Positions 12,447 through 17,501 of a stretch of DNA of 22,663 nucleotides are shown one piece after another (positions within the stretch are counted from its first letter, which is position 1; each line of letters opens with the position of its first letter). The notes beneath the pieces are model-generated. The model was not told the origin of the DNA and did no database searches. It worked only from the letters and a program-made list of their open reading frames with translations. Origin of the DNA: a virus; IMG/VR virus record IMGVR_UViG_3300048590_000155, positions 1 through 22,663 of that record. The stretch is one strand, 5' to 3'. The position numbers and the translations under genes were made by a program.

Positions 12447-13706
12447 ATGGCTAACTCTCTTACTACCCTCGACATGGTGGCGAAGGAGGCACTGCGCATC
12501 GCGCATGAGAAGGCTTCTTTCGTTGGCACCATCGACCGCTCTTACGACGACTCGTTCGGCAAATCCGGCGCGAAAATCGGCTCGACGCTCAAGGTTCGGA
12601 ACCCGAACCAATACACGCGGCGTACCGGCTCGCGCGTCATGGACGTTCAGGACCAGAGCGAGAGCACGCAGACCATCACCGTCGCAACGCAGGACGGCGT
12701 TGACATGCGCTTTAACTCCGCCGAGCTGGCGCTGACCATCGATGAGCTGTCGGACCGTTACATTTCGCCGGCTATGTCGGCGCTCATGTCCGGCATTGAC
12801 GGCGACTGCATCGTGACCGCGACGAAGGAAACCTACAACACCGCCGGCACCGCCGGTACGGTCGTTGGCGCCGTTACCTCCGGCTTCTCGGATACGTCGG
12901 CCCTCGGCGCGGCCCGCGCGAAGCTGAATCAGGGGCTTGCCCCGAAGGACGGCAATCGCGCGGTGCAAATGGATTCCGTCACGATGGCGTCGGTGTCGAA
13001 CGGCATCAAGGGGCTGTTCCTCCCGCAAGCGGAAGTCGAGCGGGCGTGGAAAGACGGTTTCATCGCGCACACGGCGATGGCTGACTTCTACGAAAACGAG
13101 CGCACCTGGAGCCTGACGAACGGCGACGACGTTGCCGGCGAGATCGATGAATCGGCGGCGACGAACTTCGTCGAAGGCGCGACCACGCTGCACATCGACG
13201 GCCTGGGAACCGGCAACATCACCGCCGGCCAGGTGTTCGACATCGAAGGCATCTACGCCTGCCATCCCGAAACGAAGGCGGCGTATTCCCACAAGCAGCA
13301 GTTCACCGTCACGTCAACGGTTGCGCTCAGCAACAACGAGGCAGACATCACCTTTACCCCGGCCATCTACACGACCGGCGCGAAGAAGAACGTCTCTACC
13401 TCGACGGGTGCAGACCTGACCTGGACGTATACGGGGCAGGATGGGAAGGACGTTACCTTCTTCGGCTCGGCCTCGGGGACATATCGCCAAAACCTGATGT
13501 ATCACAAGGACGCCTTCGCGTTCGTGACTGCCGACCTCCCGCTGATGGACGACGCCCACAAGTGCGTCCGTATGCAGAAGGACGGCATCGCGCTGCGCGT
13601 TTGGCAGGCGAGCGACATCCGTAACGACGAGCTGCTCATGCGTATTGACATCCTGTACGGATTCAAGACGCTGCGCCCGGCGTGGGCGTGCCGCATCTCG
13701 AACTAA
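12447..13706 (+). CDS. P22-like major coat protein
   Basis: The 419-residue product is close to P22 coat (430 residues). The first part (NSLTTLDMVAKEALRIAHEK, IDRSYDDSF, STLKVRNPNQY) and DMRFNSAELALTIDELSDRY fit the HK97-fold coat family typified by P22 gp5, which carries an inserted domain. It would build the T=7 capsid shell. AAGGA at 12434-12438 is a good Shine-Dalgarno. A UUCG-capped hairpin follows the gene, listed separately. Assignment rests on size, synteny with the scaffold and the N-terminal pattern. Confidence 0.85.
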   Translation: MANSLTTLDMVAKEALRIAHEKASFVGTIDRSYDDSFGKSGAKIGSTLKVRNPNQYTRRTGSRVMDVQDQSESTQTITVATQDGVDMRFNSAELALTIDELSDRYISPAMSALMSGIDGDCIVTATKETYNTAGTAGTVVGAVTSGFSDTSALGAARAKLNQGLAPKDGNRAVQMDSVTMASVSNGIKGLFLPQAEVERAWKDGFIAHTAMADFYENERTWSLTNGDDVAGEIDESAATNFVEGATTLHIDGLGTGNITAGQVFDIEGIYACHPETKAAYSHKQQFTVTSTVALSNNEADITFTPAIYTTGAKKNVSTSTGADLTWTYTGQDGKDVTFFGSASGTYRQNLMYHKDAFAFVTADLPLMDDAHKCVRMQKDGIALRVWQASDIRNDELLMRIDILYGFKTLRPAWACRISN

Positions 13707-13724
13707 TCGTCGGGTCAACTGATA

Positions 13725-13750
13725 GGCGGGGGCGCTTCGGCGTCCCTGCC
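13725..13750 (+). other. UUCG-capped RNA hairpin after coat gene
   Basis: GGCGGGGGCGC (13725-13735) and GCGTCCCTGCC (13740-13750) form an 11-bp stem with two G-U pairs, closed by a canonical C(UUCG)G tetraloop (13736-13739). No T-tract follows, so it is more likely a 3'-end stabiliser or attenuator than a simple terminator. It ends just before the Shine-Dalgarno of the next gene. Confidence 0.7.
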
Positions 13751-13767
13751 GAATGAAAGGAAACAAA

Positions 13768-14031
13768 ATGGCTGCCCAAGATTATGAACAAGTGACTTAC
13801 AACTCTCCGACCGGCGCTATGATCGGCAAGTCGGCGACGGAGAAGGTGTCGTTTTACGGTGCGATTCCCGTGGTTCAGGCGGCGACTATCGCCACTGTGA
13901 CCACGACTGGCGCTACCTCGACGACGAACGCTTACGCCTACACTACCGCCGCGCAAGCGGATGCCATCGTTACGTCGCTGAATAGCGTCGTGACGGCGCT
14001 TATCAATCTCGGCGTCGTCGCCGCGTCGTAA
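13768..14031 (+). CDS. Small putative head fibre/decoration protein
   Basis: The 87-residue product is Ala/Thr-rich. Its C-terminus (AAQADAIVTSLNSVVTALIN then LGVVAAS) is a heptad-like helix similar to those ending phage head fibre and decoration proteins. The N-terminus (MAAQDYEQVTYNSPTGAMIG) is a variable attachment segment. AAGGA at 13757-13761 supports the ATG at 13768; an ATG 15 bp upstream is less likely. The gene is flanked on both sides by UUCG hairpins, which suggests high, independently controlled expression. Confidence 0.6.
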   Translation: MAAQDYEQVTYNSPTGAMIGKSATEKVSFYGAIPVVQAATIATVTTTGATSTTNAYAYTTAAQADAIVTSLNSVVTALINLGVVAAS

Positions 14032-14036
14032 CACTT

Positions 14037-14066
14037 GGGGCGGGCTTCGGCTCGCCCCTCTCTTTT
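14037..14066 (+). terminator. UUCG-capped hairpin with T-rich tail
   Basis: GGGGCGGGC (14037-14045) and GCTCGCCCC (14050-14058) form a 9-bp stem with one G-U pair, closed by a C(UUCG)G loop (14046-14049), then TCTCTTTT to 14066. It resembles an intrinsic terminator or attenuator directly before the sugar cassette and would lower cassette expression relative to coat. Confidence 0.7.
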
Positions 14067-14077
14067 CTGGAGGATCG

Positions 14078-14842
14078 GTGACGCCCTATAAGGGTAAGGT
14101 GGCTATCTTCACGTCGTTTAATTCGTACCACGCCTACGCGCCATACGTCATATCGTTGGCGCAGACGTTGGGCGTGCTGTCGAAGCTTGGCATCGAATGG
14201 GACTACCTCGCGCGGCCCTCTGATTTTCACATTGAGCGCGCGATCAATAACACACTCACGGAGTTGATGGAGCGCGACGACTTCACGGATGTAATGCTCA
14301 TCGACTCCGACGAGTCGTGGAGGCCGGAGGATGTTGTGCGGCTGCTGCTGCACCCGCAGGACATTGTTGGCGGCTCGTACCGGATGAAGAACAATCCGAG
14401 CGAGTACGTCGGGTCGATCCGGTATGAGGACGGCGTGCCGTTGGGAATCATGCTGCCCGATGGCACGGGGATTCTGGAGGCCGAGCGGGTCGCGGCGGGC
14501 TTCCTACGGCTCAAGTTGAGCGCGCTGCGGGCGTGGGCGGCTGCCTATCCTGACTTGGCGAGCGACGAACCCGACGGGCGCAAGGTGCAGTTTTTCTCGC
14601 GGATGATCGGGCCTGATGGGGCGGACGGCAAACAGGTTGCCTACTGTCAGGATATGGCGTTTAGCAAGCGATGGCGCGACATTGGCGGGCAACTGTTCAT
14701 AGATCCATTCGTTAAAGTCGATCATTGGTGGATGGAGGCTCACAAAGGCGACCTTAACGCGCACCTACAGGACGCGAGTAAGGTTGCTGCTGCTTTTGAA
14801 ACGGTTAAGCAAATGGCCGCTGCGGTGCAAGCGCGTGATTAA
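14078..14842 (+). CDS. GT-A-like glycosyltransferase
   Basis: The 254-residue product has a GT2-like GT-A core as found in phage glycosyltransferases: DVMLIDSDESWRPEDVVRLL with the metal-binding DSD at residues 76-78, DIVGGSYRMKNN at 95-106, AAGFLRLK at 139-146, and a late acidic block VAYCQDMAF...RDIGGQLFIDP (187-210) followed by VKVDHWW. It should transfer a sugar from a nucleotide donor to an unknown acceptor. The GTG start at 14078 has a strong GGAGG (14069-14073). It overlaps the aminotransferase gene by 8 bp and is the first gene of a three-gene sugar cassette in the head module. No membrane segment is visible, so it acts in the cytoplasm. Confidence 0.8.
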   Translation: MTPYKGKVAIFTSFNSYHAYAPYVISLAQTLGVLSKLGIEWDYLARPSDFHIERAINNTLTELMERDDFTDVMLIDSDESWRPEDVVRLLLHPQDIVGGSYRMKNNPSEYVGSIRYEDGVPLGIMLPDGTGILEAERVAAGFLRLKLSALRAWAAAYPDLASDEPDGRKVQFFSRMIGPDGADGKQVAYCQDMAFSKRWRDIGGQLFIDPFVKVDHWWMEAHKGDLNAHLQDASKVAAAFETVKQMAAAVQARD

Positions 14843-15815
14843 GGTTCTGGTGCCTGACGTACCGACCGCCGATGATCTTCTGCCCTATTTGCGCCGGATA
14901 GACGCTGCCAGGTGGTATAGCAACAGCGGTCCCCTGGTGCAGGAGCTAGAGGCCCGCATGGGCGGCGTTTCGGTGTCGTCGGCGACGTTGGGGCTCGAGC
15001 TCGCGGCGCGGTGCCTGTTCGATTGGCGGCGGCGGGTGCGCGTTCCGGCGTTCACGTTTGCAGCGACTGCAACGGCGGTTATGCGGGCCGGTTTCGAGCC
15101 GATCCTGTGCGATGTTGGGCTGGATTGGTCGCTGATCGATCCAGCGGAAAAGCAGTCTCTAAACGTTTGCCCATTTGGTGCGCCGGTATCCGGCGGGACG
15201 CTGATCGACGCGGCGAGCGCGTGGGGTAATCAGACGGACGGCGTGCGGGTCTATAGCCTCCACGCGACGAAGTCCCTACCGGCGGGCGAGGGCGGCATTG
15301 TATGCGGCCCGCCCGAGCTGCTGGAGCGCGTGCGGAAGCTGGCCTGCTTCGGTTTCGACAGGACGGCCCATACGCACGGCGTTGTGGCCGAGGTCGGGAC
15401 GAACGCGAAGCTATCCGAGTATCACGCAGCGGTTGCCCTGGCTGCGCTTGATCGGTGGCCGGAGACGGTTGCATGGCGGCGGGCGCTCGACGCGGCCTAC
15501 CGCGAGCGGTTGGCGGGCGTTGTGGACTGCCAGCGCAGGCCGGAGGGCGTCTATACGTCGTTTCCTGTGCTGGTGCGTGACGCGGACGCCGTTGCCGCGC
15601 GCATGGCGGGGAAGGGGATCGAGACGCGCCGATGGTACACGCCGACGCTTAACCGGCACCCGGCGTTGCAGTGGATCAAGACGGAGGGCCAGTTGCCGAA
15701 TACAGCAACGCTCAACGATTCGCTGCTCTGCCTGCCGTTCCATCGCGGGATCACGGTCGCGGACGTTGACCACATTTGCGATCGGCTCAAGTGGGCGATT
15801 ACGAGCCGCGTCTAG
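14835..15815 (+). CDS. DegT/DnrJ/EryC1/StrS-type sugar aminotransferase
   Basis: The 326-residue product is a PLP-dependent nucleotide-sugar aminotransferase. Key blocks are RRIDAARWYSNSGPLVQELE, RVPAFTFAATATAVMRAGFE, DCVG-type region PILCDVG, TLIDAASAWGN (Asp125 to bind the pyridine nitrogen), YSLHATKSLPAGEGGIVCG (Lys146 the Schiff-base lysine) and GTNAKLSEYHAAVALAAL. The family converts a keto group on a nucleotide-sugar (often dTDP-keto-6-deoxyhexose) to an amine using glutamate. At 326 residues it is shorter than the usual 370 or so. The GTG at 14835 overlaps the glycosyltransferase stop; upstream in-frame ATGs lie deep in that gene. The family call is confident, the exact substrate unknown. 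Confidence 0.9.
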   Translation: MIKVLVPDVPTADDLLPYLRRIDAARWYSNSGPLVQELEARMGGVSVSSATLGLELAARCLFDWRRRVRVPAFTFAATATAVMRAGFEPILCDVGLDWSLIDPAEKQSLNVCPFGAPVSGGTLIDAASAWGNQTDGVRVYSLHATKSLPAGEGGIVCGPPELLERVRKLACFGFDRTAHTHGVVAEVGTNAKLSEYHAAVALAALDRWPETVAWRRALDAAYRERLAGVVDCQRRPEGVYTSFPVLVRDADAVAARMAGKGIETRRWYTPTLNRHPALQWIKTEGQLPNTATLNDSLLCLPFHRGITVADVDHICDRLKWAITSRV

Positions 15816-16309
15816 GCGGGTTGGTTCATCGGCTGGCAAACATTGCCGGCGATGTTGAATTGGGCGAGGGGACGCGCGTTGATGCGTTCGTGACGCTGAC
15901 GGGGCGCGTGCGGATTGGGCGCTTTTGCCACATATCGATCGGGGCTTGTGTGTTCGGCACCGAGGGCGTCGTGATTGGCGATTATTCGGGTCTGTCGGCG
16001 GGAGTGAAGGTGTTTACGGGCACCGAGGACTTGAGCGGCGAGTGGATGATGAATCCGACAATATCCGCGCGGTATCGCAAGTCCATCTCGCAGCCGGTAA
16101 GGATCGGCGCGCATTGTGTCGTCGGGGCCGGCAGCGTGCTGCTGCCTGGTGCGCATCTGCCTGATGGTGCGTGCGTTGGCGCGTTGAGCCTCGTCAAGTC
16201 GCCGGCTTCTGAATGGTCGATTTGGGCCGGCGTCCCGGCCAGATTCATTCGTGCGCGCTCTCGTCGCGCTCTTGAGCTACAGGCCGCGCTTGAGGCCGAC
16301 AAGGATTAG
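15791..16309 (+). CDS. Left-handed beta-helix acyltransferase (sugar N/O-acetyltransferase-like)
   Basis: The 172-residue product shows hexapeptide repeats of the LbH acyltransferase fold: VELGEGTRVDAFVTLTG, VRIGRFCHISIGACVFG, VVIGDYSGLSAGVKVFTG, and later PVRIGAHCVVGAGSVLLPGA, LPDGACVGALSLV with WAGVPARFI at residues 145-153. A loop (80-100) interrupts the helix, as in WcaF/QdtC-like sugar acetyltransferases. Next to a sugar aminotransferase, N-acetylation of the new amino sugar is the natural reading, as in the FdtB/FdtC and QdtB/QdtC pairs; O-acetylation is possible. The GTG at 15791 overlaps the aminotransferase by 25 bp; a TTG at 15776 is an alternative. Confidence 0.85.
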   Translation: MGDYEPRLGGLVHRLANIAGDVELGEGTRVDAFVTLTGRVRIGRFCHISIGACVFGTEGVVIGDYSGLSAGVKVFTGTEDLSGEWMMNPTISARYRKSISQPVRIGAHCVVGAGSVLLPGAHLPDGACVGALSLVKSPASEWSIWAGVPARFIRARSRRALELQAALEADKD

Positions 16310-16311
16310 CC

Positions 16312-16842
16312 ATGCTCTATAAGCTCGTTTTCCCGGCGCAGGCGGCAGGATCGAACAAGGTCTATTGGGATTTGTTCAATGCCAGCGGGTCGGGCATTGA
16401 TGTTGTAGTGGTGTCGCTCATGCCCTTTGTGGCCGGCTCGTCGATTGTCACCGGGACGCTGGCCGTTGACCTGTACCTAACGCGCACGACGACCATCGGC
16501 ACGGGCGGCACGGCAGCAAACTACGAGAGCGCGACCCTTACTACCCCTAATTTCGCGTCCCTGCGCGGTCGTGGATCGCCGGTTGATCGAGCGGTATCGG
16601 CGCGTGCTGCGCCTAGCGGCGGGGCTGCTGCGGGTTCGTTCCTGGCGCTCCGCAGCATATTCACCGAGGAAACGAACGCCGGCACGTATGCCCAAAGGAT
16701 CGATATGGCGCGGCCCGCCGTTGACGATATTGACGGGATCATTGTGCATCAAGGCTCGGGACTTCGCGTTGTGCAGGGAAGCGTGGCGAGCGTCGGTAAT
16801 ATCGCCTTCGATATGATCCTTCGGGTTGAGCGGCAGCAATGA
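16312..16842 (+). CDS. Beta-rich putative virion protein next to sugar cassette
   Basis: The 176-residue product is rich in Ser, Thr, Val, Gly and Ala (VVVVSLMPFVAGSSIVTGTL, GTGGTAANYESATLTTPNF), as in head decoration or fibre proteins. It has an AAGGA Shine-Dalgarno (16301-16305), one of the better ones in this stretch, so it may be made in larger amounts than the enzymes before it. It follows the acyltransferase by two bases and couples to the adaptor gene by ATGA. Its Ser/Thr content and position make it a candidate acceptor of the cassette's glycan, which is inference. Confidence 0.55.
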   Translation: MLYKLVFPAQAAGSNKVYWDLFNASGSGIDVVVVSLMPFVAGSSIVTGTLAVDLYLTRTTTIGTGGTAANYESATLTTPNFASLRGRGSPVDRAVSARAAPSGGAAAGSFLALRSIFTEETNAGTYAQRIDMARPAVDDIDGIIVHQGSGLRVVQGSVASVGNIAFDMILRVERQQ

Positions 16843-17501
16843 CGATCAGCACATACGCCGAGCTAAAGACGGCCATCGGGACGTACATGGGGCGCTCCGA
16901 CCTCACCGACCGCGCCGACGAATTCGTTGACAATCTGGAAGCCAAGATCACGCGCCGCCTGCGCGTCGGCCCGATGGAGACGACGGCCACCGGCACGTTC
17001 ACGGCGGACGCCGCGACGTTCAGCCTCCCGGCGGACTTCGTAGAGCTGCGGTCGTTCACCTACGACATCACGACGGACTCGCCGCGCAAGCTGGAATACA
17101 TCACGCCGGAGCAGGGCGACGCGCTCGAATACTCGTCGTCAGGCCCGCCGCTGTTCTATTCCATCGTCGGCAGCTCCGTTCGGATCTACCCGACGCCCGA
17201 ACAGGCGTATGCGTACACGCTGCGCTATTTCGCCAAGTTCGTCCCGCTGTCGGTGTCGAATACGACGAATGCGCTGCTGACCTCCTACCCGGACTTGTAC
17301 CTGTACGGCACGCTGCTAGAGGCGTGCGGGTACGTCGGCGACGACTCGCGTATCCCGCTCTGGAAGGCGGCGGTAGAGGAGTGCTATGCCGAGATCGCGC
17401 GCCACGACAAGCGCGCTCGCCACAAGCCGGCGACGGTGCAGTTGGACCCCGCGCTGGTGGGCATCGGCTATCGCTCCGACATTACGACGGACGGCTACTA
17501 A
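16839..17501 (+). CDS. Head-tail adaptor protein (P22 gp4 position)
   Basis: The 220-residue product begins TISTYAELKTAIGTYMGR and has DLTDRADEFVDNLEAKITRR, LRVGPMETTATGTFTADAAT, FSLPADFVEL and PDLYLYGTLLEACGYVGDDS. This pattern is typical of podovirus adaptor proteins bound below the portal (P22 gp4-like and similar phage adaptors). It closes the packaged head and provides the platform for tail proteins. It overlaps the upstream gene by ATGA and the downstream gene by one base (TAATG). It is longer than P22 gp4 (166 residues). Confidence 0.75.
   Translation: MTISTYAELKTAIGTYMGRSDLTDRADEFVDNLEAKITRRLRVGPMETTATGTFTADAATFSLPADFVELRSFTYDITTDSPRKLEYITPEQGDALEYSSSGPPLFYSIVGSSVRIYPTPEQAYAYTLRYFAKFVPLSVSNTTNALLTSYPDLYLYGTLLEACGYVGDDSRIPLWKAAVEECYAEIARHDKRARHKPATVQLDPALVGIGYRSDITTDGY

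Follow-up and report, generated by a model that had tools for sequence, protein, structure and literature searches.

A predicted amino-sugar glycosylation cassette beside the coat gene of a P22-like phage and the coupling of its glycosyltransferase to a small spike-like gene

In Pseudomonas syringae, vioA, vioB, and the 1173-amino-acid (aa) protein VioT make a modified viosamine on flagellin (PMC3927599), and A197 of Sulfolobus turreted icosahedral virus (STIV), which is essential for that virus, is thought to glycosylate its coat protein (PMC10551542). Glycosylated capsids are also described for the mycobacteriophage Che8 and its relatives, according to passages of PMC11256854 and PMC12619734 that cite Freeman et al. 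2023. Here we analyze a virus record of 22,663 bases (IMGVR_UViG_3300048590_000155; the whole of this stretch is called the window), in which a glycosyltransferase (GT), a sugar aminotransferase, and an N-acyltransferase are encoded one after another within the head gene module, downstream of a small gene that adjoins the coat gene. On balance we lean toward the view that this phage makes its own amino sugar and, judging from sequence relationships, would glycosylate its own short capsid spike with it, most likely on a stretch rich in serine and threonine.

A small coat-adjacent gene and its coupling to a glycosyltransferase

Three coat-seeded scans yielded 163 distinct loci, among which 134 have a complete coat-adaptor junction and 132 of these a recognised small gene; gene families were assigned by Pfam, PHROG, and NCBIfam profile searches. 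In the window, where all features named here lie on the + strand, the survey anchor is the P22-type major coat protein (12447-13706; PF11651, E 6.5e-24; phrog_283, major head protein, E 4.1e-56), and the SU10-type head-tail adaptor (16839-17501; PF24175, E 3.5e-36) forms the downstream border of the junction and serves as a negative control. The small-gene family lies directly 3' of the coat in most surveyed loci and occurs in two forms with a common, conserved N-terminal motif, YEQVTYNSP(D/T)GA..IG.SATEKV.FYG..PVVQ. The short form, of about 67-114 aa, often continues into a Ser/Thr-rich stretch and finishes in a helical segment, whereas the long form, of about 156-186 aa, has a beta-rich remainder. 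The window carries the short form (13768-14031), in which the motif is followed by a Ser/Thr-rich stretch (AATIATVTTTGATSTTNAYAYTT) and then by a C-terminal helix-like segment, and we propose this protein as a capsid spike or head fibre and as the sugar acceptor. A model of the long form (pLDDT 81) finds its best match in the capsid spike of Pseudomonas phage Pa223 (PDB 9ny6; Foldseek E 9.5e-5, Z 10.5, about 99 residues), with other phage fibre proteins close behind, and in Rhizobium phages, too, long-form relatives come after the gene for the major head protein.

The form of the small gene goes together with the presence of a GT at the junction. Across the 132 junctions, the short form is accompanied by a junction GT in 69 of 83 loci and the long form in 0 of 49 (14 short-form and 49 long-form junctions are without GT; Fisher p 8e-24), and in 56 long-form loci the whole of the DNA retrieved is free of GTs and methyltransferases belonging to these families. 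Because related loci are not independent, we used a coat tree, on whose supported branches the small-gene form changes at least 19 times; among independent pairs differing in form, the GT differed in the same direction in 16.7 and in the opposite direction in 0 (p about 1.5e-5). The coupling was first noticed on an initial 84 loci, and a replication set of 67 complete loci from later scans gave 27 short-form loci with and 9 without GT, 0 long-form loci with and 31 without, and 7.2 pairs versus 0 (p 0.016). The adaptor control showed no coupling to the GT (3.2 pairs versus 3.3), and adaptor type was rejected on these figures as a driver of GT presence. The junction GT belongs to the family of the window's enzyme in 62 loci, is a DUF115/MptE-like protein in 6 (L016, L030, L039, L041, L057, and L011, with the L030 match at 31.7 bits, just below the Pfam cut-off of 34.6), and is another GT-like protein in 1, so that three kinds of GT occupy one junction position. 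We take the MptE/DUF115-like domain to be one that also occurs in Maf flagellin glycosyltransferases.

The two sequences also vary together. In 52 loci with the short form and a single-domain GT, the distance correlation between small protein and GT is 0.53, compared with 0.04 for coat and GT and 0.08 for coat and small protein. Overall, values of 0.51-0.53 for small protein and GT stand against 0.04-0.07 for coat and GT; given the coat, the partial correlation is 0.51 for small protein and GT (p 0.0005) and 0.22 for GT and adaptor (p 0.017). These values bear on the explanation that the GT modifies the major coat or some other virion protein and not the small spike-like one, as in some mycobacteriophage capsids. 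Such a target would suit a GT that adjoins the coat in the head module and whose closest structural match, A197, is itself a proposed modifier of a major coat protein, and mycobacteriophage capsids and tail tubes bear glycans, as stated in passages of PMC11256854 and PMC12619734. However, the coat hardly co-varies with the GT while the small protein does, and GT presence is discordant with the coat phylogeny, on whose supported branches it changes at least 22 times, which makes a coat target rather unlikely in our view.

It might also be argued that the small gene and the GT are merely co-travelling neighbours with no enzyme-substrate relation, since they are usually adjacent and recombination can carry both. 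We doubt this explanation, because the small gene still tracks the GT (0.49) and not the coat (0.06) in 20 loci that have a further gene between the two, although the coat is the nearer neighbour there; moreover, the adaptor, a downstream neighbour, is uncoupled, and unrelated GT families take the one position. We regard the small protein as the probable acceptor because of its position, the coupling of its form to the GT, the sequence co-variation, and its structural relatives, and the evidence as a whole speaks more for the small protein than for the coat, and more for a target on the virion than for host glycans or DNA.

Predicted chemistry of the cassette and its target

A previous sequence-only reading of the window had described three overlapping genes at 14078-16309 as an amino-sugar synthesis and transfer cassette between coat and adaptor. 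The coordinates, overlaps, and family matches bear this out, the flanking genes are indeed a PF11651 coat and a PF24175 adaptor, and the key residues are kept, as opposed to broken active sites. The reading did capture the trio but overlooked two other genes of the interval, namely, the small gene, whose product we now consider the leading candidate for the acceptor, and a further gene at 16312-16842. The survey of related phages that it proposed gave the trio at the same junction in one locus, L005 (identity to the window: coat 77%, GT 67%, aminotransferase 71%, acyltransferase 67%), and in no further viral contig, whereas a GT alone is common (62 junctions). The full trio was seen in the window and L005 only; a single-sequence aminotransferase query of viral contigs gave no match and an aminotransferase alignment search returned the L005 contig only, and the trio was therefore not surveyable widely.

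The GT (14078-14842; 254 aa) starts at GTG 14078, with a Shine-Dalgarno (SD) sequence GGAGG at 14069-14073. Its only PHROG match is phrog_1574 (E 6.8e-13), of unannotated function; curated family membership was sought in Pfam by profile search with no match, and the sequence matched no solved structure at E up to 5, so its placement came from the fold search alone. An AlphaFold2 model built on 26 phage sequences (pLDDT 90.1, pTM 0.85) has A197 as its best solved fold (Foldseek E 2.2e-8; Z 17.3, 2.6 A over 164 residues). Next in rank are the LH3 glycosyltransferase domain, mimivirus R699, yeast Mnn9, and COLGALT1, and several of these structures belong to enzymes that glycosylate proteins. According to this model, the enzyme is of the GT-A fold, in agreement with the DSD motif noticed earlier (D76-S77-D78), both aspartates of which are invariant in 27 relatives. 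D192, which sits in a CQDMAF motif in the window and in GEDYAF in most relatives, and H216 are likewise invariant in these 27. By comparison with GT-A enzymes in general, we read D76 and D78 as the DxD motif, D192 as the conserved acidic residue ahead of the last helix region, and H216 as the C-terminal histidine. A DNA-pattern search for the acidic motif across the window found nothing. Hydropathy analysis showed no membrane segment, and the GT is predicted to be soluble.

The aminotransferase (14835-15815; 326 aa), a pyridoxal phosphate (PLP)-dependent sugar aminotransferase of the DegT/DnrJ/EryC1/StrS family, most likely starts at GTG 14835, overlapping the GT by 8 nucleotides, and matches PF01041 with 136.7 bits (cut-off 19.8; E 1.5e-39). 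Numbered from that start, the PLP-binding Lys146 lies in SLHATKSLPAGEGG (SxHxTK-type) and the upstream Asp125 in LIDAASAWGN, as had been proposed; the active-site residues are conserved with L005 and the lysine also with 3ju7. The best NCBIfam model is DesI, a dTDP-4-dehydro-6-deoxyglucose aminotransferase (dTDP, deoxythymidine diphosphate), at E 2.9e-34 and 118.8 bits; the equivalog cut-off of 650 is not reached, which leaves the enzyme similar to DesI in sequence and below the threshold for assignment as DesI. The best solved relative is 2po3 (E 8.6e-27, 97 bits), which we take to be DesI itself.

The third gene (15794-16309; 171 aa) encodes a left-handed beta-helix (hexapeptide) N-acyltransferase (LbH) and most likely starts at GTG 15794, where L005 has an ATG at the same aligned position, overlapping the aminotransferase by 22 nucleotides. 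It matches PF00132 with 44 bits (cut-off 27; E 1.4e-11), and within NCBIfam it scores best against the model of the NeuD/PglB/VioB family (E 8.1e-18, 64.7 bits; subfamily cut-off of 160.8 not reached). Its best PDB relative is 3vbi (E 2.7e-28, 102 bits), from a series deposited as galactoside O-acetyltransferase that we take to be AntD, which acylates dTDP-4-amino-4,6-dideoxyglucose. Among the residues mutated in the variants compared from that series, the serine (3vbk/3vbm) is kept and the aspartate (3vbn/3vbp) is replaced by glutamate.

For both enzymes the C4-type relatives outscore QdtB and QdtC by about 70 bits, and these similarities point to a C4 route (DesI/VioA plus AntD/VioB), in which C4 amination would be followed by 4-N-acylation. 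The sequence-only reading had drawn its analogy to the FdtB/FdtC and QdtB/QdtC pairs, which would yield a 3-amino-3,6-dideoxyhexose. The same two superfamilies are involved there, and the PDB matches do include QdtB and QdtC, but at 29 bits (3frk, E 4e-6) and 31 bits (3fs8), respectively, versus 97 and 102 for the C4-type relatives, and the DesI and NeuD/PglB/VioB models likewise point away from it. A C3 route would also call for a 3,4-ketoisomerase, and none was recognised in the window, whose small open reading frames (ORFs) were only partly scanned; we consider a C3 product improbable. As the C4 route starts directly from dTDP-4-keto-6-deoxyglucose, no ketoisomerase is missing and host RmlA/RmlB activity suffices, so that the dependence on a host dTDP-sugar claimed earlier stands while the supposed ketoisomerase gap disappears.

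Taken together, a C4 scheme would run as follows. The window holds no genes for the synthesis of dTDP-4-keto-6-deoxyglucose, and the phage would draw on the host pool made for rhamnose and similar sugars. The aminotransferase, to judge from its closest families, would aminate C4 to give a dTDP-4-amino-4,6-dideoxyhexose, either viosamine or its galacto epimer, and LbH would then acylate the 4-amino group with an acetyl or a short hydroxyacyl group. The soluble GT could transfer the sugar directly, bypassing any lipid carrier or export across the membrane, to a virion protein made alongside it in the cytoplasm. The most likely sites would be serine or threonine residues in the Ser/Thr-rich stretch of the short spike protein encoded directly upstream of the GT. 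In most relatives the GT would work without the other two enzymes, presumably with an unmodified host sugar and at some loci with a methyltransferase, while the trio would add a dedicated donor.

The bacterial relatives of the aminotransferase-LbH pair are informative as to targets. A scan of genome contigs gave 80 aminotransferase relatives, mostly from Proteobacteria and up to 45% identical, and flagellin or FliD genes lie near the aminotransferase in 12 of them. The best LbH matches among the aminotransferase neighbours include two Rhodanobacter loci, L224 and L228, whose pair (42% identity to the window for the aminotransferase and 38% for LbH) has FliD and flagellin genes directly upstream; in L224 the two genes overlap by 4 nucleotides and a GT2 protein of 1183 aa follows. 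A 723-aa ORF in L228 was considered as an aminotransferase-LbH fusion and rejected, being a read-through frame that overlaps the aminotransferase, with the genes separate. For the nearest bacterial pairs, a link to protein glycosylation may thus be drawn, as in the vioA/vioB/vioT islands.

That bacterial relatives act in surface-glycan and flagellin loci would equally suit a transfer of the sugar to a host surface glycan or host protein, such as O-antigen or flagellin, altering receptors or blocking superinfection, and serotype-converting phages use glycosyltransferases. The cassette, however, contains no membrane protein, flippase, or lipid-carrier enzyme, and its GT has no membrane segment; Gtr-type serotype conversion is less likely because these membrane partners are lacking. 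The late head-module position speaks in the same direction, as does a GT presence that is coupled to which form of a virion gene is carried and not to genes for tail or receptor, and we hold a host target to be a poor prospect, in line with the earlier preference for a virion protein over a host glycan. Modification of phage DNA bases appears far less plausible still and was rejected: phages do have diverse glycosyltransferases that act on DNA (Pyle 2024, cited in a passage of PMC12619734), but the scanned window ORFs include no recognisable base hydroxylase or hydroxymethylase, none is annotated in two complete relatives, and neither the head-module position nor the coupling to a capsid gene fits.

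Several observations weigh against a sugar-tipped short spike as the product of this cassette. The 14 short-form loci have no recognised GT, and linked inheritance of neighbours could add to the coupling. The spike role of the short form rests on its position and on the N-terminal motif common with the long form. Ser/Thr clustering in the tail of the small protein is higher with a GT than without (7.0 versus 5.1 per 15 residues, p 7e-5), in a comparison that includes 9 loci without GT and is uncorrected for relatedness. In the GT of the window, Gln precedes D192 where most relatives carry Glu, and the choice between C4 and C3 specificity rests on sequence similarity.

Junction variants and neighbouring features

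A small methyltransferase adjoins the GT in 23 junctions (e.g., L014 7337-7846 and L058 1809-2303). VioM and mimivirus R132 methylate viosamine, and the junction methyltransferases recall them. Some junction GTs are long (386-748 aa; L002, L047, L064, L065, L069, L074, L126, L142, and others) and carry an extra domain, which in one of them has a weak methyltransferase-like match.

Our results lead us to suggest, tentatively and with less assurance than we have in the glycosylation of the window's own spike, that P22-like phages swap two solutions at one position, either a long spike with a protein tip, for which no enzyme is required, or a short spike tipped with sugar by a dedicated GT, with optional methyltransferase or amino-sugar genes, and that the trio represents a variant in which the phage of the window itself supplies a rare amino sugar for this tip. 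If this is true, capsid-spike glycosylation would be common in a large, mostly uncultured P22-like group (69 of 132 junctions) and not a mycobacteriophage oddity, and a comparison of close relatives that differ in having a protein or a sugar tip could reveal what the spike is for, be it adhesion, spreading, or escape from binding proteins. For phage virion glycosylation, the finding names a testable set of an 88-aa acceptor, an enzyme, and a predicted sugar.

The late module of the window is P22-like, in the order terminase, P22 portal (PF16510, E 9.5e-181), scaffold-like gene, P22 coat, and SU10-type adaptor. From coat to adaptor it encodes the small gene, the GT, the aminotransferase, LbH, and an uncharacterised protein of 176 aa. 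The small gene can also be read from ATG 13753, and the start at ATG 13768 is favoured because of the SD sequence aaagga at 13756-13761. Between the small gene and the GT lies a terminator-like hairpin with a T-rich tail (14037-14062; 9-bp stem, -22.1 kcal/mol, z -4.0), one of 10 such sites in a terminator scan for which 5.8 were expected, and a second strong hairpin, with no T-tail, lies between coat and small gene (13724-13750). The former may keep the enzymes at a lower level than coat and spike, and together the two may set the expression ratios of all three, an arrangement that would agree with coat and spike being made in abundance and the enzymes in smaller amounts.

The skew between A and T is negative over the small gene, the trio, and the next gene (window 14000-16500) and positive around them, a possible sign of separate origin that is consistent with later acquisition of the aminotransferase and LbH and equally with different codon use. 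The 176-aa gene that follows the trio (16312-16842) has no Pfam or PHROG match; its family occurs in 8 loci, including L053, L071, L128, and L137, with all tabulated cases at GT junctions, and could represent a second surface protein. In L049 an unrelated-looking gene of 164 aa takes its slot. A cupin-like-looking family of about 150-170 aa, with no confident family match, recurs 3' of the adaptor (L037, L058, L063, L035, and others).

Comparison with known systems

Precedents exist for each half of the proposed scheme, a viral amino sugar on the virus's own fibrils in mimivirus and glycosylated phage capsids; no report of the combination at this genomic place was found in open-access papers, an absence that is weak evidence. 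The P. syringae viosamine island resembles the cassette in that a DegT aminotransferase and an acyltransferase provide a dTDP 4-N-acyl-4-amino-4,6-dideoxyhexose that is transferred onto a self-assembling protein fibre (PMC3927599). It differs in being bacterial, in placing the sugar on a flagellin rhamnose glycan, in its VioT of 1173 aa as opposed to a 254-aa phage GT of a different family, and in its extra genes for a hydroxybutyryl group, which the window lacks.

Among viruses, mimivirus R141/L136/L142 (PMC10117803) likewise includes a virus-encoded aminotransferase and an N-acetyltransferase, there fused to a GT, for UDP-N-acetylviosamine on its own capsid fibrils. Unlike the phage, mimivirus is a giant eukaryotic virus that uses a UDP-sugar and encodes its own 4,6-dehydratase, an enzyme that the window does not have. 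A197 is the closest solved fold to the GT, a minimal soluble viral GT-A enzyme for which capsid-protein glycosylation is proposed (PMC10551542), but it belongs to an archaeal virus, is about 18% identical over aligned residues, and has no adjoining sugar-making genes.

The mycobacteriophages, as far as passages of PMC11256854 and PMC12619734 describe them, have phage-encoded glycosyltransferases and sugar on virion proteins in common with our proposal; they are a different phage group, their GT genes lie near the genome 3' end and not at the coat, and their glycans are on capsid and tail tube, not on a coat-adjacent spike. The Pa223 capsid spike, finally, is the best structural match of the long form, while the short form carried by the window has no matching domain, and it is this short form that the cassette would tip with an amino sugar.

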